Part shown: positions 10,563 to 46,100 of the stretch, piece by piece | How positions within the stretch are numbered: position 1 is the first letter of the stretch | Layout: every line of letters starts with the position of its first letter | Origin: Prosopocoilus inquinatus | Lineage: Eukaryota; Arthropoda; Insecta; Coleoptera; Lucanidae | DNA length: 64,000 nt | Direction: 5' to 3' | NCBI GenBank assembly: GCA_036172665.1 | Contig: CM069870.1 | Location: 28,680,001 to 28,744,000, forward strand | Position numbers and translations under genes: made by a program | Notes under the pieces: generated by a model | What the model was told of the DNA's origin: nothing | What the model saw: only the letters and a program-made list of their open reading frames with translations | Database searches by the model: none

Positions 10563-10790
10563 TGCAATGTCAGGTCAAAAAGCGATAGTAAGATGTCGCT
10601 ATTTTATCTGTTCATCATTCTTACATCGCAATTGCGAATAAATTGGACAAGTCGTTTTTGTTTGCAGTGGAAATGTCGAGCTACGTCTCTGATGAAGAAG
10701 TCCCAAGCAGGGCTGAAACAGCTGTCCAGAAGCTGTTCGAGGTTTTCACCGCAATCAAAAACGATTTGCACAAAATTTTTCTAGAAAATT
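10563..10790 (+). mobile_element. Diverged single retrozyme copy
   Basis: Matches the 312-bp monomer from GCAATGTCAGGTCAAAAAGCG to the TTTTTCTAG region with scattered substitutions. Aligned ribozyme 10686-10732: the core is ATGAAGA (invariant C3 lost); the shifted CTGATGA at 10689 is out of register with stem I. Stem III palindrome and GUC (10724-10726) are kept. No clear target duplication. Confidence 0.75.
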
Positions 10791-16159: not shown

Positions 16160-19100
16160 GTAAGTTTCCATATTTTTAATAATTCTTAGACTAGTATGAT
16201 TAGAATTCATTGAGGATCTATTTTTGAAAGAAAGTCTGGTATATTTTCTGTAAGTTTTTGTTACTTTTTCTGTAACTTACATTAGTTGTCCTTAAGCCCT
16301 TATGATACGGTGATATTTCTTGTATTAGATTTGTGATAAAACTGATAGAGAAGCCGATTTAACTTTTAATTTTTTTTATCTTCGTTCATAACTTCATTAT
16401 ACAAGGTTTTTGTAAAATAAATGCAAAATTTTTAACCACAGTAAGCGAACAACACAAGAAAAATTGAAAAGAAATTAGTATCACAGAAAGAAAATTCCTT
16501 GCTTCTCTGATCGTAGATAGTAAACATCACGGCGATGACAAATAATACCCAACATACTCATCGAATTTCATCCGTGTGGAGGATAACATTTAAACAAACG
16601 TTCACTATTAAACAAATGTTTATAACAATTGTTTGACGTGGCGTCCATCATTAGCGACACACAGACGAGTTCCGCGAAAAAGTGATTCTTGTTTTCGTAT
16701 GCATGATAGGATTAGCGCAAATACTGTCGATGAATACACTCCTCTGAAATGCAGTTCTTTCGCCGTTTGCGGCATTTTAATAAGTAATAATACTATGTAG
16801 ATAGTAATCGTATTTAGCCTTAACTTGTTCAATCACTTTTCACAAACTAAACTGTTGATCCCAAAGAATACGGAGCAATAAATTGAATCGATGAGTGCAT
16901 AATCGTGTTCAGTCCAAATTGACTGTGATGAGAAAACAACAAATAACTTTCTAGATTTTTATGTTAAGTGAATTATTGGCTTAAAATTCTTTCAAATAAG
17001 GATACCTGAAATCTCCTGAAGCCAATAATAACTTAAAATAAAAATCTAGAGAAAGTTATCTTGAAATTTTTGGTTACGAGTAATGTCAATTTATCTTGAA
17101 ATTTAAGTTACCAAAATAAGCGTCGGTATCATAACAATGGCAACACACTTAGACGAATTGGACTTGCCGCATATGATATATCAATTCAGCTGGCCGTGCT
17201 TTAAACAGTTCAGTTTAACAATATCAGTTAGAGAGTAAACTGCAAAATGTTTAAGTATACTTCACGAAATTTTGTTGGATAAACTTTATAACTAAGACCT
17301 ATCATCTGTTGAGACTCTTAAATATTGTCCTGAAATATTTGTTTCTAAAGTTAATTATTATATTTTAGAAAAAAATTTTGTGCAAATCGTTTTTGATTGC
17401 AGTGAGAACCTCGAGCAGCCTCATTCTTACATCGCATTTGCGAATAAATTGGGCAAGTCGTTTTTGGTCTGCAGTGGGAATGTCGAGCTACGTTTCTGCT
17501 GAAGAAGCCCCAAGCAGGGCTGAAACAGCTGTCCAGAGGCTGCTCGAGGTTCTCACTGCAATCAAAAACGATTTGCACAAAAAAATTTTCTAAAATCTTT
17601 CATTATGCTTTGACAGCAAGCATGGCCGCCTTGCATGGGGGACTCATTAGGAGCAAATCCCGCTTCAATTTGTCTATCCTACTGCAATGTTAGGTCAAAA
17701 AGCGATAGTAAGATGTCGCTATTTTATATGTTCATCATTCTTACATCGCATTTGCGAATAAATTGGGCAAGTCGTTTTTGGTCTGCAGTGGGAATGTCGA
17801 CCTACGTTTCTGCTGAAGAAGCCCCAAGCAGGGCTGAAACAGCTGTCCAGAGGCTGCTCGAGGTTCTCACTGCAATCAAAAACGATTTGCACAAAAAATT
17901 TTTCTAAAATCTTTCATTATGCTTTGACAGCAAGCATGGCCGCCTTGCATGGGGGACTCATTAGGAGCAAATCCCGCTTCAATTTGTCTATCCTACTGCA
18001 ATGTTAGGTCAAAAAGCGATAGTAAGATGTCGCTATTTTATATGTTAATTATTATAGTTGTTCTGTATATATTTATATCAAGTTCTGAGAAATAACAGTT
18101 CATTCCAGAATGAATCAATGAAACAGTCATTTTCACATTATTCGCTGACGCCATTCCCACAAGTGGATCTACAGTCGCTGCTATTATGGCTACTAAAAGT
18201 AGGATTTAATCGTTTAATGACCATTACGTATATGCATTACTAGTATTATATCATAAAGAAATCAAACCGATATTTTAACAACGTCTTAATTCGCCTGTAA
18301 TAAACAAATTTATAGTATCAGCCTAAAATTTCGAAATAAACTTTTGTCAAAGTGGCATTTTCTTTATAATGAAGTATAACTTTGGTTACCTTGGAAAACC
18401 GTTATTTACAAAATACAAAAAGATGTGTTTACTGTGCATTCTATTTCTTTTGATCTGTAGGAAGGTTCACTGCAATCGAAACTGACTTGCAACTAATTTC
18501 TTGCGTTTCAAAACTCGCCACATTGCGTTAAAGTCGCTTTACACTATATCTGATTTTACATTTGATTTTGAATTTGACTTCAGAAATATTATAAAATATA
18601 TCCCTATTCGTTCGAGATATTATTTGAGTTGCGCGGTTTGATTTTTTATGTGACTTTTACAAAATAGAACCGTACCTAGTCTCATTTGATTTTACAAATG
18701 GACGTACGTCGAAGTAATAATTTTGAACTTTGCGCGCCTATGCGCTCCAAGTGGTAAGGAACCGGCTTTGCAATCGCATGGTTGTGGGTTCCAGTCGCGA
18801 TCGGGATGTTTATCGGGAGTGGTCGATATCCGCTTCAGGAACCGTTCAATGTTGAGGAGAAAATTGGACACTGCTTCCCCGTAAATGGCAAGAAGATTTG
18901 GAAGTAACAAAGTCATGGAACACTTTAAACACGTAAAAGCTACATTTTCGCTCCTGAGGCCTTGACAAGTCTATGACTTAAGACTCCGTTGGGCAACCGA
19001 CACAGATTTAAAAAAAAATTGTGGCACTTACATATGAAACTGTTTCTGAAATTATACGAAAATAATAATTAGTAAAAGAAGTAAGAAGGCGTTGGGTTCC

Positions 19101-22100: not shown

Positions 22101-25100
22101 AAATAAGGTGAAAGAGGGAGAAAGTGAAAACATTATTCTGCGGACATTTTGGAAGAACTTGAAGGAGCCCAACCGAAATTCATTTCGAAAGAAAAAGTCA
22201 AAGGATTTGTACGAGAAAGAGTATGAAGAGGCGATGTGCAATTAGGGATAAAAACGAGGGTCAAGCTGAATTTATTGAGAATAAGAAAATCTAGCAGGCC
22301 TTGAAAAACAAAACATACATTGTTATTCAGAATACTTTTTATCTGTCATTTGAAGTTTAGTTGCTGAATCTACGTTTGGTATAACCGAAGTTATTAATTT
22401 TTAAAAGTGACAGTACAAAGTACAAAAATTGAATTAACCAGAGAGCATTTTCGAATCATGATTTATTATGATTTTAAAAAAGGCTTAAGCGCTTATGACT
22501 GCAAGGAGAGTTTAGATTCGGCTTTCAGTGAACAAGCACCTTCCTTGGCTAGAATTTACCGATGATACAAGGAATTTGAACGCGAAAGAAATTCTGTTCA
22601 GCATCAAAAAGGAGCAGGGCGTCCTCCTACGGCTGTTACCGACAACAATATTGCTGCTGTTAAAAAAATAATTGAAGAGAACAATAAAGCCACTTATGCG
22701 GTAATCGAGCATCAACTCAAGATTGGATCCTCAGCTGTGAGAACAATCTTATACGATCACCTATATTTAAAAAAAGTGGTTAGTCGTTTTGTGCCGCATC
22801 AACTTTCCGACTTCCAAAAAGCAGAACGTGTAAGGATTTGCCATGAAACTTTAAATTTCTTAAACAATGGTGGCCACCAAATTTTTTCCAAAATAGTGAC
22901 AGGTGACGAAACTTATATTCCATTTTTTGACATACCAACCCGCCAAGAGAGTCGTGTGTGGATTCATGAAGATGAGGAAACTCCAACAATAACCAAGAAG
23001 CTGCGAGCTACGAAAAAAGTTATGAATGCAGTATTTTTTAAAAGTACTGAGCTAGTAAAAGCAATTAAGCTAGACGGATAAAAGACAGTTACAGCTAAAT
23101 GGTACACTGAAAAATGTTTGCCTGAAGTATTCAGTAAGGTTCCAAACAAGGGAATTATTCCGCACCATGACAATGCATCATCCCATACTGCGGCTTTAAC
23201 TCTCCAGTTTTTGGCTGGAAAAATATAAAAATAATAGAACATCCGCCGTATTCACCTGATTTAGCTATGTGCGACGTCTGAAGAAGAGATTGATGTCGCA
23301 GTTCACACTTATTTTGACGGTATTCCGAAAGAACATTGGTTGGGCGCTTTTAAACAGTAGAAAGAAATAATGGTTAAGTGTATCATTGGTGAAGGGAATT
23401 ACTTTGAACACATCTAAAATAAAATCATATAAAATAGCGACATCTTACTATCGCTTTTTGACCTAACATTGCAGTAGGATAGACAAATTGAAGCGAGATT
23501 TGCTCCTAATGAGTCCCCCATGCAAGGCGGCCATGCTTGTTGTCAAAGCATAATAATTATGCTTAACTCTCGTATAAGTAAGTCAAATGGAGAGACTTGT
23601 TAGTGTTGAAAGTAACTGCACTTTCGATTTCTATAAATTTTGTTCTAAAAAATGTAATTATTTTCAATATTAAATATTAACATTGTTATAATGAATAGTT
23701 TAAACAGCGACATCCTACGATCGCTTTTTGACCTGGTACAAAATTTCTTATTGTTAGTATGCGTAAAGTTATTTTTGCTTAGCAACTTTAAAGCCCTAGG
23801 GCAACAAACGCCAAATGATGACCTCATTTGGATGCCAATAAACAAGATTATGATTCCAAAATAAAATAAAGATATTTACGTACGCATAACTTGTGTAATG
23901 GTAATGAAGCAGATGAAGCTAGCAGGTGAATTCCGGAAACAAAATCATTTCACGTCCAAGGCAATTACGGGCAAATAACTAATTTAAAATCTTATAAGAA
24001 AGCAGGTTCCATTTTGATATTTTTAGGAGAACTGGAAGTGGAATGATAAATAAAGGCATTTCTGAAATTTAATATTGAAGGTTAAGTTCCAAAGTTTCAA
24101 ACTTAGCAATTATTTTTATATTCATATTTATTTTTTGTTCTGCAACTTTTATTTCTACCAAACCGACATCGTTTGAGCATTGCTGTAATAATGTAAGGAA
24201 AACTTATTTCTGTCGTAAGCCAAGGCAAGCTATAAGAGTTAACAAGATAATAAATAATGTAATAAAATACTGGGTGATTTTAATAGTTGTGCATTTTTTG
24301 AAATCGGTAATATATAGTTTATAATAAATTGTAATAATTGAGCTAATACCGGGTGATCAACGGAATTCATAATTAGAAGAGGTTGTGAATGGTGTTATTT
24401 TATGCTGTGTGATTGGATACACTAAGAAACAAATAATAAATTGACAGTTATCATATTTGAGGTTACGCTCCTGCTTTGTACAATCTTTATTTTGTTATTT
24501 TATTTTGTATGGAGACTGGTTTAAATCCTTTTTTTGGAATATTAGGGCAGGTTCCATAAGATAAATTCTTAATATTAAAGGAAACTTTAAACAGAAATTC
24601 GCTCAGAATTTATTTTAAAGCCTCCTTTAGTTCAATTATGAAACTCGCCCTTAGAGAGAGAAAGCGCAAACAAGCGAGGCAACAAAAATTATTTTGCACA
24701 GCACATTTGAACTCCTAATCGAGGCATACAGATATCATTGAATTTTTTGCAAAAATCCCTTTCACTCTGTATTATCTTTCAAATATTAATGTCTAAACAA
24801 CAGAATTTTTCAAGTTCTGAGAGTGTCATCCATCAAAACATTTTGAGTGGAAATAAAGTAAAGTACTATGCACAAAAAAATAGGAAATTTCGATGTTACA
24901 TTGTATTTACATAATCTGTTAGGAGTTCGATACAACTGAGCCCGCAGAATGTTTAAGATTAGTCACATCTGTATGTATGCAGGCCATTGCACGTATGTCA
25001 ACGAATTTTACAAGAAACTTCTTACGGTGACGTCATGAAAATAAGCAAGCGGGTAAGCCCGAGTTTTGTGACTAAAAGTCGGTGTTTTCATTGGTCGTGG

Positions 25101-37100: not shown

Positions 37101-40100
37101 TTCTCGTGCAGAAGAAAAAAATCCTTCAGCTCGTAATCACAATGTCACTTAACGACATGGTCGTCAGCTTTTTTTAATTCGATTTCTCCCACATTCGGAA
37201 AGTGAAGCCGCACGACGGACGTGAGAAAAGCAACTGACCCGTACTTTCCTTAACACGATTCTTGTTCCATCTTCCTGTTTTCACATGTAATTTAATTTGG
37301 CCGTGTTGATCTAGCTGAAAATTTTGTATTCACCGCGGACTGAAGCGATCGCTCGCCGTTATGTACACATCATCAAGGAATTCGTTAATAAAAATAAACA
37401 CTGCACTTACAAAAATGACGGCAAGATTAAAATTAATTAAACTCGTTGCGCGACGTGAGAAAGATTAAAGGGAAAATACTGTCAAATTTGAATTATAAAT
37501 TGAAAACTCGGCGAGTTAATTTACCACAGATTTGAGTTAAGAAATTTTAGGAGTGTCAGTTTTAAATTATGTTTGATTAAAATGAGTTCGCTTTTAATAT
37601 TCTTATACTATAGTTAAGAAGTTAGAAATTTAAACCAGGGTTTTCATGTAATCAAAAATAATTATTTTAGAATGTTATTTTATACTGACTACAATATCGT
37701 TTCACTTTTTAAGGAAACACTCAAGTATACATTATTGAACTATTTTCCGTTCACGTTAATATCCTATCAAGGATACTAACCGGCAGTTAAATTTATCAAG
37801 ATGTGGTAAAATCGGGCCTAAGTAACGAGCTGAAACTGAACTTATTTTTTTATTTACTATCTGTTCTGTTTAATGTACTTAGTTATTTTTAATTTGTTAT
37901 TAAAATACACTTTGATTAATAACGACGACATCTTTTAGCAAGTTCCTTGTAAATTAACCTGCCTTGTAAGTGCAAAAAAAGTCTGCCTGTTGTTCAGCAT
38001 TACGTACAGTCGACAGTTTCCTGTAATTTTTCTTTTTTCGAAATAGTACTGTTTAATTAAATACGGTTTCACAGGTGACGCTTAAAAATTTTGAAAACTG
38101 TCGTCGGATTTGACAAGCTCGAAAGTTTGTCAAATCTATGAAATCGTATATTTTTAAATTTAAAATTAAAAATTAATTAAACAGTACAATTTTGGAGAAA
38201 GAAAAACTACATGAAAATGTAATTATCTACTATTTTTGTGGTGCTTTTTCGACCGTTCGAACGAATGTTAAAATGATTGCAATTACGTTGTCGTTTAATT
38301 TAATGTTCATTTTAAGTTTAAAAACGAATTAAAAGATCCTAGCTTTTTTTTTTAATAAATAAAGTATAGCTTACACGTTCTTTGAAAAAGCATTGTGTAC
38401 GTCAAGGATTTCAAACGGGGCTAATAGACACTAGATAGGGGTCGATGAACCTATAGGGGTTAGCTGGGGAGCGATGAACATCTAGGTGTCTTCTCTCTAG
38501 GAGTCTAGTAAACTATTAGTGATAATGTAAATCGAAATAAATTTGTTTCGAGTAAAAGAAGAAAAAAACAAATTGATAATTAAAAATTAAAAAAAAACAA
38601 ATAAACATAAGGATAATTCTTTTGTCTTTTTTGGTAAAATAAACAATGTCAAGAAAATCAAACGAAATACAGTAGAATTACACTTTTGTTTCTTAATTTT
38701 TAATTATCAATTCATCGTCTTTTGTTTTTTTTCTTTTGAAACAAAGGAATTACACTTTCGTTTGATTTTATTTGACGATTTTTAATTTTTAATTATTGAT
38801 GAATTGATAAAACTTGAAACTTGGGTTAACAATGAAAATCCGATCGTAAATAACTCAAAAAAACAAAAAAGCAAAAGATGATCAGTTGATAGTTAAAAAT
38901 TTAAAACAAATCAAATTAAATTGACTAAAAAAGGAAAGAAAACCAAAGCCTATCAACTGATTATGTTAAAAATTGCAAATGCGGAAAGAAAAAGAAAACA
39001 AAATGAAATAAAAGATGGTGATAAAATTAGGACGAAAATAAAAATAACATCGAAGCAAATCGAATGAATTAAAAGATGGCAATCAATCTACGAGATGAAA
39101 ATGTAAAATGAATTAAACTCAAATCGAGTGAAAGCAAGAAAAAAAACACAAAAGGTAATCAACCAATAATTAAAAAACTATAATTAGATCAAAGAAAAAA
39201 CAAAAACAAAAGATGGTAAAAATTGATGAATTTCGTCATGCCCCGAAAATTACTCTGGATTTATAAAACAAACCCACAAATTGATAATTAAAAAATAAAA
39301 TTGAAGCAAATCGAATTAAAGATGGCAATCAATCGATGAGATGAAAATGTAAAATGAATTAAACTCAAATCGAGTGAAAGCAAAGAAAAACAAAAAAAAA
39401 GCTAAACACCAATAATTAAAAAAAATATCAAACAAAAGGAAAGAACAAAAACAAAATATGGCATCCAGAACAGGCTATGTTAGGGTGACATTTTGTTGGT
39501 ATCACTAAAAATATGTTATAGAAAAATTTTGTGCAAATCGTTTTTGATTGCAGTGAGAACCTCGAGCAGCCTCTGGACAGCTGTTTCAGCCCTGCTTGGG
39601 GCTTCTTCAGCAGAAACGTAGCTCGACATTCCCACTGCAGACCAAAAACGACTTGCCCAATTTATTCGCAATTGCGATGTAAGAATGATGAACATATAAA
39701 ATAGCGACATCTTACTATCGCTTTTTGACCTAACATTGCAGTAGGATAGACAAATTGAAGCGGGATTTGCTCCTAATGAGTCCCCCATGCAAGGCGGCCA
39801 TGCTTGCTGTCAAAGCATAATGAAAGATTTTAGAAAAATTTTGTGTAAATCGTTTTTGATTGCAGTGAGAACCTCGAGCAGCCTCTGGACAGCTGTTTCA
39901 GCCCTGCTTGGGGCTTCTTCAGCAGAAACGTAGCTCGACATTCCCACTGCAGACCAAAAACGACTTGCCCAATTTATTCGCAATTGCGATGTAAGAATGA
40001 TGAACATATAAAATAGCGACATCTTACTATCGCTTTTTGACCTAACATTGCAGTAGGATAGACAAATTGAAGCGGGATTTGCTCCTAATGAGTCCCCCAT

Positions 40101-43100
40101 GCAAGGCGGCCATGCTTGCTGTCAAAGCATAATGAAAGATTTTAGAAAAATTTTGTGCAAATCGTTTTTGATTGCAGTGAGAACCTCGAGCAGCCTCTGG
40201 ACAGCTGTTTCAGCCCTGCTTGGGGCTTCTTCAGCAGAAACGTAGCTCGACATTCCCACTGCAGACCAAAAACGACTTGCCCAATTTATTCGCAATTGCG
40301 ATGTAAGAATGATGAACATATAAAATAGCGACATCTTACTATCGCTTTTTGACCTAACATTGCAGTAGGATAGACAAATTGAAGCGGGATTTGCTCCTAA
40401 TGAGTCCCCCATGCAAGGCGGCCATGCTTGCTGTCAAACCATAATGAAAGATTTTAGAAAAATTTTGTGCAAATCGTTTTTGATTGCAGTGAGAACCTCG
40501 AGCAGCCTCTGGACAGCTGTTTCAGCCCTGCTTGGGGCTTCTTCAGCAGAAACGTAGCTCGACATTCCCACTGCAGACCAAAAACGACTTGCCCAATTTA
40601 TTCGCAATTGCGATGTAAGAATGATGAACATATAAAATAGCGACATCTTACTATCGCTTTTTGACCTAACATTGCAGTAGGATAGACAAATTGAAGCGGG
40701 ATTTGCTCCTAATGAGTCCCCCATGCAAGGCGGCCATGCTTGCTGTCAAACCATAATGAAAGATTTTAGAAAAATTTTGTGCAAATCGTTTTTGATTGCA
40801 GTGAGAACCTCGAGCAGCCTCTGGACAGCTGTTTCAGCCCTGCTTGGGGCTTCTTCAGTAGAAACGTAGCTCGACATTCCCACTGCAGACCAAAAACGAC
40901 TTGCCCAATTTATTCGCAATTGCGATGTAAGAATGATGAACATATAAAATAGCGACATCTTACTATCGCTTTTTGACCTAACATTGCAGTAGGATAGACA
41001 AATTGAAGCAATTGCGAATAAATTGGGCAAGTCGTTTTTGGTCTGCAGTGGGAATGTCGAGCTACGTTTCTGCTGAAGAAGCCCCAAGCAGGGCTGAAAC
41101 AGCTGTCCAGAGGCTGCTCGAGGTTCTCACTGCAATCAAAAACGATTTGCACAAAATTTTTCTAAAATCTTTCATTATGCTTTGACAGCAAGCATGGCCG
41201 CCTTGCATGGGGGACTCATTAGGAGCAAATCCCGCTTCAATTTGTCTATCCTACTGCAATGTTAGGTCAAAAAGCGATAGTAAGATGTCGCTATTTTATA
41301 TGTTCATCATTCTTACATCGCAATTGCGAATAAATTTGGCAAGTCGTTTTTGGTCTGCAGTGGGAATGTCGAGCTACGTTTCTGCTGAAGAAGGCCCAAG
41401 CAGGGCTGAAAGCTGTCCAGAGGCTGCTCGAGGTTCTCACTGCAATCAAAAAAGATTTGCACAAAATTTTTTTAAAATCTTTCATTATGCTTTGACAGCA
41501 AGCATGGCCGCCTTGCATGGGGGACTCATTAGGAGCAAATCCCGCTTCAATTTGTCTATCCTACTGCAATGTTAGGTCAAAAAGCGATAGTAAGATGTCG
41601 CTATTTTATATGTTCACTAAAAATATGGAAATCAAAAAATTATGTTAGAATTTCATAATTATTATTTCTGAAGATTGGAACTCCCACTAGTAAATGTTAT
41701 GAATGATTTAATTTTCTTTAAGCTTACCATTACCGACCATGATAAGCACTCTTCCAAATCATTACCACAGTCATTATTACAAAATAGAAAACTTTATAAT
41801 TTTTGACATATCGAACTTTGACTTCTGTCAAATTACATGCATGTAACCCAACGAAAAGAAAGCATGGCCTACTAGAATGCCAGAAAATCGTAAATGATTT
41901 ATACAAGATGTTTAATTAAATTAATTGTGTATAGCAGACTGTAGCGCAATCCAGTGATGGAACTGTTATGTCGTACAGATTAAATTTCATACTTGACGTG
42001 TGTGTCCAAATTATCTAAGTGTAGTTCGCTCATTTATACATATAGCTATCACGATGACGGCACATACAATGAGTGATAAATAACTTTGAATTGTGGACAC
42101 GGTCTATCTGTTATAATGTCTCGCAACTGTATAAACACCGTTCTAATGATATTCCTTTTTGCAAGTTTGCGTCTAGAGCGCCGGAGTTGGATGAAAGTTA
42201 TTCCTAGGAGAATTTAAATTATAGATTGCAATCGTAAATATGCGCTACGGAAGCGCTTTAAATCCAAAATCTTCTTTCGACGTTAATATATGTGGATTTT
42301 CGTAAAAATATTAACATTGCAGTTCGCGCAGGATGATAAATGTGTTGCGAAATGGAAGAGTAACATAATTTTTTTCTTATTACCTTATACAGATTGTATC
42401 GTGATTAACCGGCAGCAGACAAAGTATTTTATAGACAGACGAGAACCCACATTTGCAGTTATAATTTCAAGCCCATGTCGCACGATATAAATTCTGTTAC
42501 AATGTGATAGGTGCAGGCTACCAGAATGAATGTTTATTGCTTAATTTGGTGTTTCTCATTAACCTTGTAAATAATTTGTAAGTAAATTTCTCATCGTGTC
42601 AGATAGTCCTTACAGAAAAATATTTAATAACACGTAAAGGAATGAAAATTGTACAACAGAAGTAAACAAGTGGCCCATGTGATGCAGTACAGCGACTTTC
42701 CGTTAATAAATGTCAAAGGTCTTTGAAATTTATATGATTTATGTTTGTATCTAAATACTTTAGATAACATTCCACAAGTTCAAAATCCTACAACGACCAA
42801 AGTTTAAATATACTGACTGACAAAGTTAAAGAACACCAAGAAGTAGTCATTCAATAGAACAAAGTTTCATGTATTGTATTTAAGTGGTCAAAATAAGTAA
42901 ACGATCAATATTTGAAAGAAAACAAGAACAATATAATGCGTCGCCCCACCGCCACCATGGTGCTCTATGCATTCCCTAACACTTCGCGCATCGTGGCCTT
43001 GAGTTGATGAGGTTATCAATTTCCTCCTGGGGTATTTCACTCCATGTCACTGTATTTGGTGTCGGAGCTCTTCCAGAGTCTGTGGAGGACGAAGTAACTG

Positions 43101-46100
43101 GCCCAGTCGTCTGCCTATAATATCCCAAACACATTGGATTGGGGCTAGATTAGAAGATCTTGGAGGCCAAGGAAGGAGGGTGACTTCAGCTTCTTCAAAA
43201 CAAGTCATAGTAACCCTGCCAATATGCGGTCGGGCATTATCTAAAAAGATGAGGTTCTGTAATATCCGGAGCGCATCGTTGAGCATTCATGGTACCCCTA
43301 ACGAACACCAAGGATGATCTACTACCATACCACCACACCCAATTGCCCCCCATACCATAATTCCAACATTTTGGTTTACAAGGAATTCCACGAAAAACTG
43401 TGGATGTCGCCGTTCTCCACGTCATCTCCTAACCCTTCTCTGACCATCGTTCATACCCAAGCAAAATCGGGATTCTTTACTAAAGACCACCTAGTGCCAT
43501 TCTTCATTCCACTGTAACCTTTCTCGGCACCACCTTTTTTGTGATCAGCGGTGAGTGGTAACACAAAGTGCGGCCGGTAAGACATGAGTTCCAAAAATCT
43601 TATTTTCGTCTGCAGATGTTCTAGTTGTTATCCTTCTGCCTTTTTTTCCAAACCATTGGTCTACCATGGAACGAGTGAGACAAAAAAACGATTCCTCACA
43701 GCCAGCAGTCGTAGGCGACGGTCATGACATACTGTTGCTTGTCGGGGCCGCCCCGAACGTCTGGCTCATTCGCGTCCTTCCTCTGACCAAACATGATAAC
43801 AGTTCACCACAGCTGACACTATTCTCTTTAAATGGGCTGCAATTTGGCGAAAAGATAAACCCTCTTCTCGAAGGCCCACTACTCAACCGCGCTCCAAATT
43901 ACTTGATTGTCTGAAATTGGGACGCCAACGAATTCTGGGCATTTTAAACAATACATCAAACATGTCGAAGTGACATAAATCATCAAACCCCCACATATTG
44001 CGGCAAGTTTTTCTTCAGCATAAAAGATTTTAAAAAAATTGCTGAAACTACTGAAGGAATAGAGATAAAACTTTAATCAATTTTTATTTTGGTCACTCGC
44101 AACTGATATACAAAATTGCATTAAAATATGGGTGTTTTTTTTTTACTTTTGCCAGTCAGTATAAATCGTTATGGCCTGGTTCCATAAACGCAAGAAAATT
44201 TACGGCACACTTTAATGGCTTATGTAGTAACTACTGGTTTTACAATAATTAATAATAATTGTTTCCACAATTATTATTAAGGCATTAAATTACAGTAAAT
44301 CTATCTTGTGTTTATGACCCCGGCCGTAGGACGTATGTTTGTATTAGAGTGAATTCAGTAATTCACATTCAATACTATTTTTTATTAGACAGCTGTACAA
44401 CAATAATGGCCAATAATACATACGTAATTACGTTACAGTTCGTCAATGGACTGCATAAAAATTGTATAAATTGTACCGATTCGCTTTACGTTTGACAGTT
44501 TCACTCCTAATGGAACGGTCAATCGATATCGATATCATTGAAACGTTTGCGGCCGTTATAAAGTAATGCCGAAATTATTATACCAATTTTCATCTGACAA
44601 GATTTTAGTCGAATTATAAAATTCGTGTTTTAAAAATATAAAACAGAGAATTCTACAAAGACGAAAACTACAAATACATAGATATAAGAAAATAATACTG
44701 CAGAACAAGTAAAATATACAGTCTGTTTAATTATAGAAGATAACTAACTTATTTTTGCTTAAACACCAGTAAAGTGTATATTAAATTAGATGGGACGTTG
44801 TTTTCTTGAGAATGAAGTTAAGTTATTTTTTTTGTCTACACTGTATAAAAGTGAACTACATAAAATTTTGTGGTCTTACATACAAAAATTTGCAAAATTT
44901 CAAAATATTGAAAAAGAAAATAAATTAAGAAACAATTTTAAAAAAATGTATAAACGAAACAACCAAAGATTAATGAAACAATTGCAAAAAATGTCAAATT
45001 ATTACCATTCTTATGTTGTTTTGAGTGAATTAAGTGATTTTCTGAATTTTGCGTATACTTTACACTTTTTCTAATGTGATATCATGAGTAGATAATATGA
45101 CAATGAGATCATTGACAACGCTATTTGCGTCTCGCCAACTCTATAAAACTCTATAAAAAAAATTACTCTAATCCGGAATTCATTTGAATTCATTCGTTTC
45201 ATTTAAACATATAAAATAGCGACATCTTACCATCGCTTTTTGACCTAACATTGCAGTAGGATAGACAAATTGAAGCGGGATTTGCTCCTAATGAGTCCCC
45301 CATGCAAGGCGGCCATGCTTGCTGTCAAAGCATAATGAAAGATTTTAGATTTTGCATGGGGGACTCATTAGGAGCAAATCCCGCTTCAATTTGTCTATCC
45401 TACTGCAATGTTAGGTCAAAAAGCGATGGTAAGATGTCGCTATTTTATATGTTCACCATTCTTACATCGCATTTGCGAATAAATTGGGCAAGTCGTTTTT
45501 GGTCTGCAGTGGGAATGTCGAGCTACGTTTCTGCTGAAGAAGCCCCAAGCAGGGCTGAAACAGCTGTCCAGAGGCTGCTCGAGGTTCTCACTGCAATCAA
45601 AAACGATTTGCACAAAATTTTTCTAAAATGTTTCATTTAAAATTTGAGAAGTTAAATGCAGTTTTTTGAGTTTTTTCAAAAATGTGTTTCTGTATGTGGT
45701 TGAAAAGGGAAAAGGATATTCTACTACTACTATTAATATTTCGCAAGAAAATATTATCGTGCCATTTAAAAAAAAATGTCAATGACGTTATGACTATACA
45801 GTATATGTAGACCAAAAAAGGTTTTATTCTTCGTTCTCTAGAAAGCAACGTCCGAAAAATAAATGAGATACAGCTTGGGACCTTATAATCAAACAGATTA
45901 TATTTAGATGTTTCAAATATCGTTAAAGATATGTATACAAACGCAATGAATGTCTCCCTGAGTGACAGTTAACACATTAATAGATTTTTGTTGATTTTTA
46001 CATTGTTATCATGTAATAAATTATTTATTTGAGAAAACCCATTGTTTATTTAGAGGAACTTCATGATTTAGATAATTTAAAGAAAATAATATTGAAGCAA

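Follow-up and report, generated by a model that had tools for sequence, protein, structure and literature searches.

A hammerhead retrozyme of the beetle Prosopocoilus inquinatus is inserted head-to-head by a two-ended rule that a resident Penelope-like element also follows

How does a short repeat that encodes no enzyme come to be inserted across a genome, and what moves it? The question is raised by a stretch of 64,000 nucleotides of the beetle Prosopocoilus inquinatus (assembly GCA_036172665.1, contig CM069870.1, positions 28,680,001 to 28,744,000 of the forward strand), here called the window. Its interval 39516-41616 (insertion A) is a repeat of 312 bp, each unit of which codes for a type I hammerhead ribozyme, and by its sequence features the element is a metazoan retrozyme of the kind lacking long terminal repeats (LTRs). 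We found that its copies are inserted head-to-head with two unlike outer ends and that a Penelope-like element (PLE) follows the same rule. Because both insert in this way in one genome, we consider it probable that the retrozyme is non-autonomous and is moved in trans by the PLE, through the cycle proposed below. Published work is cited here for portions of the respective articles.

The insertion rule of the retrozyme

We numbered the unit along the ribozyme strand, position 1 being the base 3′ of GUC. The exact 31-nt core has 12,493 copies in the genome (650 Mb), while the reversed control pattern has none; the exact core had 0 matches among viral contigs. The architecture was studied at 73 loci drawn from the first 100 core places listed, all on a single contig (C1), plus the window. 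Once three edge cases were dropped, 89 insertions were scored, and possible later duplicates (at least two pairs, L005/L009 and two of L058, which by eye have a common flank) were kept in the counts. Sixty-nine insertions were two-armed, with a minus-strand arm followed by a plus-strand arm, 18 were one-armed and 2 were complex; some one-armed cases probably hide a stub below the reach of BLAST, as seen by eye in L019.

Among the two-armed insertions, 61 of the 69 had one outer end near position 60 (P1) and the other near position 199 (P2), with P1 on the left in 36 and P2 on the left in 25. The remaining ones had two like ends (3) or P1 together with an aberrant end (5). When the single-arm and complex cases and two insertions with an extra break are excluded, 67 simple insertions are left, in which 108 of the 134 outer ends fall within 5 nt of position 60 or 199, compared with 7 of the 134 inner ends, which are scattered round the unit. 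Neighbours no more than 1.5 kb apart were arranged minus-plus in 21 cases, plus-minus in none and on the same strand in 6 when the core pattern was used; the corresponding numbers for the P1-flank pattern were 24, 0 and 14 (100 places listed for each pattern). The head-to-head layout of insertion A is the rule of the family.

A direct target duplication of 10-16 bp was present in 52 of 59 insertions with unlike ends and measured exactly 12 bp in 29, whereas mispaired flanks gave duplications of at least 10 nt in 5 of 1161 cases. The target motif is AAC[12]GTT, with AAC to the left of the duplication and GTT to the right. The 29 exact 12-bp sites match it at 4.34 of 6 bases on average (1.4-1.7 in shifted frames), and the best frame over all 48 sites with at least 12 bp gives 3.96 (1.8-2.0 shifted). 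The matrix of the sites correlates with its own reverse complement in register (r 0.71) and at most weakly when shifted (≤0.31), which indicates that the cut is two-fold symmetric.

Fixed termini, a symmetric target and a nearly constant 12-bp duplication recall a transposase. The retrozyme could on these grounds be a DNA element with two fixed termini, either cut-and-paste or a fold-back satellite, whose ribozyme is a relic and whose inversion arose by DNA rearrangement. We regard this as very improbable, since the inner junctions spread round the unit, arms longer than one lap call for a template that is circular or tandem, and an element of this genome that encodes a reverse transcriptase (RT), described in the next section, has the same insertion pattern. 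At the inner junctions of the 67 simple insertions, 13 with large overlaps or extra bases were set aside, leaving 54 scored, and removal of a further 13 with more than two mismatches left 41 clean junctions. These have a mean microhomology of 2.41 nt, compared with 0.72 nt expected, and in 30 of the 41 it amounts to 2-5 nt.

A resident Penelope-like element follows the same rule

We searched the genome for GIY-YIG domains and scored the best 150 of 2232 candidates; neighbour pairs among the matches listed were minus-plus in 47 cases, same-strand in 1 and plus-minus in 0. The copy L142 (Table 1) is apparently intact. The domains of its 785-aa open reading frame (ORF) are RVT_1 (2e-14, residues 319-511) and GIY-YIG (9.4e-7, residues 685-767). 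The unit measures 2604 bp, the two arms make 1.56 and 1.18 laps, and the tail continues into the lap that follows. Over 3075 nt the arms show 99.97% identity, and the copy was apparently inserted recently; it has one tail end and one short end, and lies outside the 35 insertions counted below. A candidate minimal hammerhead was seen by eye at L142 7197, and Rfam gave no match in L142 4400-4800 up to an E-value of 5. The short end of the PLE lies about 47 nt past the candidate hammerhead cut and the tail end about 38 nt further, which is the start of the next lap.

We examined 36 of the 47 minus-plus pairs, a sample in which the orientation is preselected and only the ends and duplications are unbiased. 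All 35 insertions that could be resolved have one short and one tail end, with the short end on the left in 19 and the tail on the left in 16. All 35 also carry target duplications of 11-16 bp with a mode of 12 (null for at least 10 bp: 2/680), and their sites match AAC/GTT at 3.26 of 6 bases in the best frame (1.7-2.3 shifted). The PLE follows the insertion rule of the retrozyme in the same genome.

Twin priming of the L1 type, which a long interspersed nuclear element (LINE) might by chance have performed on a tandem RNA, likewise gives rise to head-to-head inversions, microhomology and target duplications. This explanation has very little probability in our view, as the two fixed internal starts are used one each, the duplication is mostly 12 bp, the target is palindromic and the GIY-YIG PLE copies obey the identical rule. 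A different origin of the inversion is snap-back self-priming, in which one cDNA folds and copies itself into a head-to-head product, as has been proposed, on an antisense template, for Penelope elements of rotifers (PMC3846280). The PLE offers something in its favour, because in 5 of 7 fully mapped insertions (L076-L080) the inner ends are no more than 14 nt apart and form near-perfect palindromes, six of the seven having been picked for small size. However, snap-back predicts two like outer ends, and the ends are unlike in 35/35 PLE and 61/69 retrozyme insertions. Moreover, no excess of coincident inner ends (≤10 nt) was found for the retrozyme (7 of 67, 4.4 expected, P 0.15). We consider snap-back improbable in general, and it is disfavoured for the retrozyme.

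The template of the retrozyme

At core-chosen loci, 63 of 66 P1 arms pass the cleavage site by at least 5 nt, a figure that the choice of loci favours. At P1-flank loci without the exact core the same holds for 8 of 12 arms, a set that omits one edge-cut locus (L036) and L152, whose P1 end lies outside the stretch. Of all 78 P1 arms, 71 pass the site by at least 5 nt, 6 stop short and 1 stops within 5 nt. A linear, ribozyme-cut monomer was rejected as template, because cDNA primed at P1 would then end at unit position 1, yet 71 of 78 arms cross it. Counted in laps, 29 of the 134 arms exceed one and 3 exceed two, the longest arm being 1494 nt. Since arms cross the cleavage site and some exceed one lap, the template ran through the site without a break.

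After trimming, 58 of 129 left-arm variants were also present in the right arm, compared with a mean of 11% (maximum 19.5%) for mispaired arms; without trimming, the count was 71 of 195 (mispaired 10.6%, maximum 18.9%). Among variants confined to a single insertion, 7 of 39 reappeared in this way. The variants common to both arms indicate that the two arms were copied from the same sequence, if not demonstrably from a single molecule.

The predicted fold of the circular unit has a minimum free energy of -112.1 kcal/mol (z -7.9), or -106.1 kcal/mol with the hammerhead enforced. It takes the shape of an extended rod that carries the hammerhead at one end and P1 and P2, unpaired, at its foot. Covariation is modest, with 12 double-compensatory cells at the pairs 19-257, 22-254 and 43-232. 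Single changes keep the pair in 54% of cases, against 19% for random changes with the transition bias left in. The low divergence of the core among the sampled loci is biased, the loci having been chosen by their core.

A proposed cycle and its alternatives

In the cycle that we propose, the 312-nt repeat would be transcribed and cut by its type I hammerhead into 312-nt RNA, which a host ligase would circularise, as is known for relatives. The RNA would fold into the predicted rod, presenting P1 and P2 at the foot. A two-fold symmetric PLE protein, presumably a dimer like that suggested for a published PLE, would cut both strands of AAC[12]GTT with a 12-bp stagger. Each cut strand would then start cDNA at a site of its own, one at P1 and one at P2, on templates identical in sequence. 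The cDNA would pass the cleavage site, may lap repeatedly, and the two 3′ ends would be joined, usually through 2-5 nt of microhomology, into the head-to-head product. We infer that the RNA cleaves itself and forms circles, that the PLE supplies the enzyme and that each site on one RNA serves a single primer strand; the template is probably a circle.

Frangieh et al. (2024, PMC11167929) purified a PLE of Anolis (Poseidon), a predicted dimer that cleaves both DNA strands and extends them; its cDNA begins at two internal sites, which delimit the tail. The insertions of the retrozyme look as though its RNA were a substrate of an enzyme of this type. A broader reading is that retrozymes and Penelope elements share one machine distinct from the target-primed reverse transcription of LINEs, consisting of a dimer, a palindromic target, two primers on two sites and an RNA circle made by the hammerhead. 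We put it forward tentatively and think it somewhat less probable than its opposite. If it were true, rolling-circle cDNA would account for the tandem units and the pseudo-LTRs, two start sites for the PLE tail, and joined antisense cDNAs for the head-to-head inversion, while the role of the hammerhead would be to make an endless template.

Several observations weigh against a PLE-driven cycle on a circular RNA. The full pattern of two unlike ends is missing from 28 of the 89 scored insertions. The target match of the PLE is weaker than that of the retrozyme, chiefly on the right side, and P1 and P2 are 139 nt apart compared with about 38 nt for the PLE sites. No significant similarity was found when pieces of the PLE were compared with the retrozyme unit by BLAST (best E-value 2.6). 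The comparison with retrotransposons of this genome covers the PLE only, and transcription, cleavage and circles are predictions from the sequence. Stem II of the hammerhead is closed by an A-U pair, where the usual closing pair is G-C, and for this reason self-cleavage is graded as plausible only. With respect to Poseidon, no difference in start site between the strands was seen in vitro in the text available (PMC11167929), whereas each resolved PLE insertion of the beetle has one end of each kind.

The remaining objections concern the circle, and they speak for the main rival, in which a PLE primes at two sites on unprocessed linear multimeric transcripts of tandem copies that the hammerhead only trims or for which it is dispensable, and a circle plays no part. 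Any uncut template would explain why arms cross the cleavage site, and for 105 of the 134 arms a single lap at most suffices, so that only a minority require rolling round a circle. A variant at unit position 73 occurs in two adjacent units of insertion A and is absent from the others; a single circle would need later exchange to give this pattern, and a multimeric template could give it directly. Mutants of the Anolis hammerhead ribozyme insert normally in vitro, and unprocessed RNA is the favoured substrate there (PMC11167929). However, direct tandems able to template arms of more than two laps are rare in our sample (3 of 134 arms). Read-through of head-to-head copies should moreover spread inverted junctions, and an extra inversion was seen in only 2 of 89 insertions (L024 and L047). 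Related retrozymes, finally, have documented circles (PMC7229834). We judge the multimeric template unlikely, and keep the circular one as the template of the proposed cycle.

The hammerhead in the 312-bp unit

Stem I of the unit pairs positions 1-47 with 228-277 and contains internal loops, and the remaining core consists of CUGAAGA, stem II AGCCC/GGGCU with the loop CAAGCA, GAAA and then ACAGCUGUC. Tandem Repeats Finder reported a period of 312 with 4.8 copies for 39519-41009, a period of 310 with 2.0 copies for 41008-41616 and a period of 314 for 17421-18053. The unit is non-coding, with a GC content of 0.43 and a longest stop-free stretch of 103 codons over two laps. Of 67 sampled insertions, 57 have C and 10 have A at position 312, the base 5′ of the cut, and the NUH rule permits both before a hammerhead cut.

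The 35-nt string that spans the core, stem II and stem III has nine exact copies in the window and one with two mismatches (mean 0.00 in 100 shuffles). This bears out an earlier note on the window, made from the letters alone, which had described nine intact units out of ten in three insertions. The tenth unit, near 41383, misses stem III bases and has an altered stem II, and an eleventh, at 10692, has diverged and begins with ATGAAGA. The full hammerhead descriptor is satisfied by 8 units and not 9, because the exact unit at 40824-40858 lacks the closing pair of stem I. The descriptor was satisfied in 0 of 20,000 dinucleotide shuffles of the unit, and 1 of 200 shuffles of the whole window (one strand) contained any match.

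Covariance models were among the checks that the earlier note had proposed for the ribozyme. At the gathering threshold, Rfam gave no match anywhere in the window, and under relaxed limits HH9 (14.5 bits, E 8.4) was the sole family of the hammerhead clan listed for 39000-42000. Hammerhead_1 aligned over its full length (1-45 of 45) with 17440-17600 in insertion B, whose core letters are identical to those of A, but the 23.8 bits (E 6.4e-4 for 161 bases) stay under the gathering score of 34. The type I hammerhead in a 312-bp unit, as described in the earlier note, is confirmed by the descriptor matches together with this full-length alignment.

It had also been suggested that the lack of a loop in stem III makes the RNA cleave as a dimer. 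This is not established, as ACAGCUGU can alternatively close into 2 bp with an AGCU tetraloop. A 2-bp stem with a tetraloop has been termed similar to invertebrate ribozymes (PMC7229834), most of which cleave as monomers (PMC7761336). An axolotl variant with 2 bp cleaved as a monomer to only 22% in an hour and better as a dimer (PMC7229834), which by analogy would speak in favour of dimer cleavage.

Eight Hammerhead_1 matches of Rfam, seven of them above the cut-off, were seen elsewhere in the genome among the best 74 of 83,220 candidates (e.g. G000:C4:54091586-54091631). They may represent other hammerhead families of this genome.

Relation to known elements

The testable defining features given in the available text on metazoan non-LTR retrozymes fit the beetle element (Cervera & de la Pena 2020, PMC7229834), which by these features belongs to this known kind. 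They comprise a type I hammerhead, a tandem unit of about 170-400 nt with a GC content below 50%, no LTR, primer-binding site (PBS) or polypurine tract (PPT), target duplications of more than 4 bp, highly paired RNA and the presence of PLEs alongside. The hammerhead, the unit size, the dispersal, the target duplications and the paired fold all suit the classification as a metazoan retrozyme that was made from the letters alone. With its 312-bp unit free of RT, GIY-YIG and any long frame, the beetle element is inserted like a PLE and is not itself one. Unlike here, the mobiliser is hypothetical in the text of that article (a LINE or a PLE) and no head-to-head two-ended rule appears there, whereas in the beetle the rule has been measured and is common to a PLE.

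What is new here is the rule of head-to-head insertion with two unlike ends and its agreement with the resident PLE; such a rule for retrozymes was not found in the open-access literature searched, in the portions of the main texts that we covered. The mobilising enzyme and the template of animal retrozymes have been left hypothetical (PMC7229834, in part). A common quantitative signature, made up of unlike ends, a duplication of about 12 bp, AAC[12]GTT and microhomology, links the retrozyme with a PLE of the same genome, so that the question of the mobiliser can be put to the test with a single purified protein and a single 312-nt RNA. The signature also offers a simple account of three odd traits of PLEs, namely the pseudo-LTRs, the tail and the inversion.

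We know of no description of the integration ends of the satellite hammerheads of cave cricket and newt. These are likewise type I in tandem repeats and have been described as satellite DNA (PMC7229834). Poseidon of Anolis resembles the beetle PLE in its RT and GIY-YIG ORF, a tail lying between two internal RT starts, the cutting and extension of both DNA strands, as proposed for the beetle, and an A/T-rich target, and it has a hammerhead, of which the beetle PLE has a candidate seen by eye; the retrozyme differs from it in being protein-free and in having sites 139 nt apart (PMC11167929). The Penelope elements of Adineta vaga have head-to-head inverted pseudo-LTRs and an optional tail at one inverted end, with duplications of 8-10 bp in the cases quoted. 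Their inversion was ascribed to self-priming on an antisense template (PMC3846280), which does not predict unlike ends. Plant LTR retrozymes are also non-coding, bear a hammerhead and form circular RNA, as is supposed for the beetle element, but they have a type III ribozyme, LTRs with PBS and PPT and a 4-bp duplication (PMC4918200).

Copies in the window

The copies of the window are listed in Table 1. Neither the inverted two-ended architecture nor the additional pieces at 10563-10786, 17362-17422, 23426-23554, 23688-23734 and 45206-45349 figured in the earlier note. The segments of insertions A-C are 97-100% identical to the reference unit. This identity, the 12,493 exact cores and the exact target duplications make recent activity of the element likely, in line with the note's proposal that it is active or was so recently. 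For fragment D, we looked for a clear target duplication and found none.

Table 1. Retrozyme copies in the window, with their parts and flanking duplications, and the apparently intact PLE copy. Positions are those of the window unless a genome coordinate is given.
Feature	Position	Strand	Remarks
Insertion A, left arm, 4.8 laps of the 312-nt unit, outer end unit 60 (P1)	39516..41009	-	mapping and Tandem Repeats Finder
Insertion A, right arm, 2.0 laps, outer end unit 199 (P2)	41008..41616	+	mapping and Tandem Repeats Finder
Insertion A, head-to-head junction	41008..41009	.	
Target duplication of A, left copy TCACTAAAAATATG	39502..39515	+	
Target duplication of A, right copy	41614..41627	+	3 bases common with mapped element end
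Hammerhead core, stem II and stem III, one unit	40200..40234	-	other exact minus copies at 39576, 39888, 40512, 40824
Hammerhead core, plus arm of A	41073..41107	+	copy near 41383 damaged
Insertion B, left arm, unit 61 to 3, outer end P1	17362..17422	-	
Insertion B, right arm, 2 laps, outer end P2	17421..18053	+	hammerheads at 17499, 17813
Insertion C, left arm, outer end P2	45206..45349	-	
Insertion C, right arm, outer end P1	45352..45637	+	hammerhead at 45534
Fragment D, outer end near P2 (195)	23426..23554	-	short plus-strand stub may follow (by eye)
Older copy E, 94% identical, end at unit 60	10563..10786	+	core begins ATGAAGA
Old fragment F, 83% identical	23688..23734	-	
PLE copy L142, apparently intact, both arms head-to-head	G000:C2:41411250-41418750		785-aa RT/GIY-YIG ORF

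Outside the window, retrozyme copies 84-85% identical to its unit were seen at L009 1971-2203 and L005 1474-1706. They have a common left flank, may be a sign of an older wave, and may also be one insertion that was duplicated later.

In the relaxed Rfam search of the 3 kb around insertion A, the best-scoring families were plant MIR169 families. The best two, MIR169_8 and MIR169_2, lie on the junction hairpin at 40875-41055 (E about 1e-7, below the cut-offs), and we took them as chance matches. Inverted retrozymes could therefore be mistaken for plant-type microRNA precursors.

Other observations

Around G000:C6:31279764-31281104 (L156), a nuclear contig carries a long stretch of mitochondrial DNA with an open COX1 frame and, by eye and under the invertebrate mitochondrial code, COX2 and ND2 frames; more COX1 pieces occur elsewhere in the genome. 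A full-length COX1 frame on contig C6, apparently a nuclear copy, shares 98% identity with a cluster of Lucaninae, in keeping with a stag-beetle host. In the window, the segment 39000-39470, immediately to the left of insertion A, is A/T-rich and by eye has short imperfect repeats of its own. An open frame of 171 aa at 22566-23081 on the plus strand, recognised by eye, resembles what we take to be a fragment of a mariner/Tc1-type transposase.

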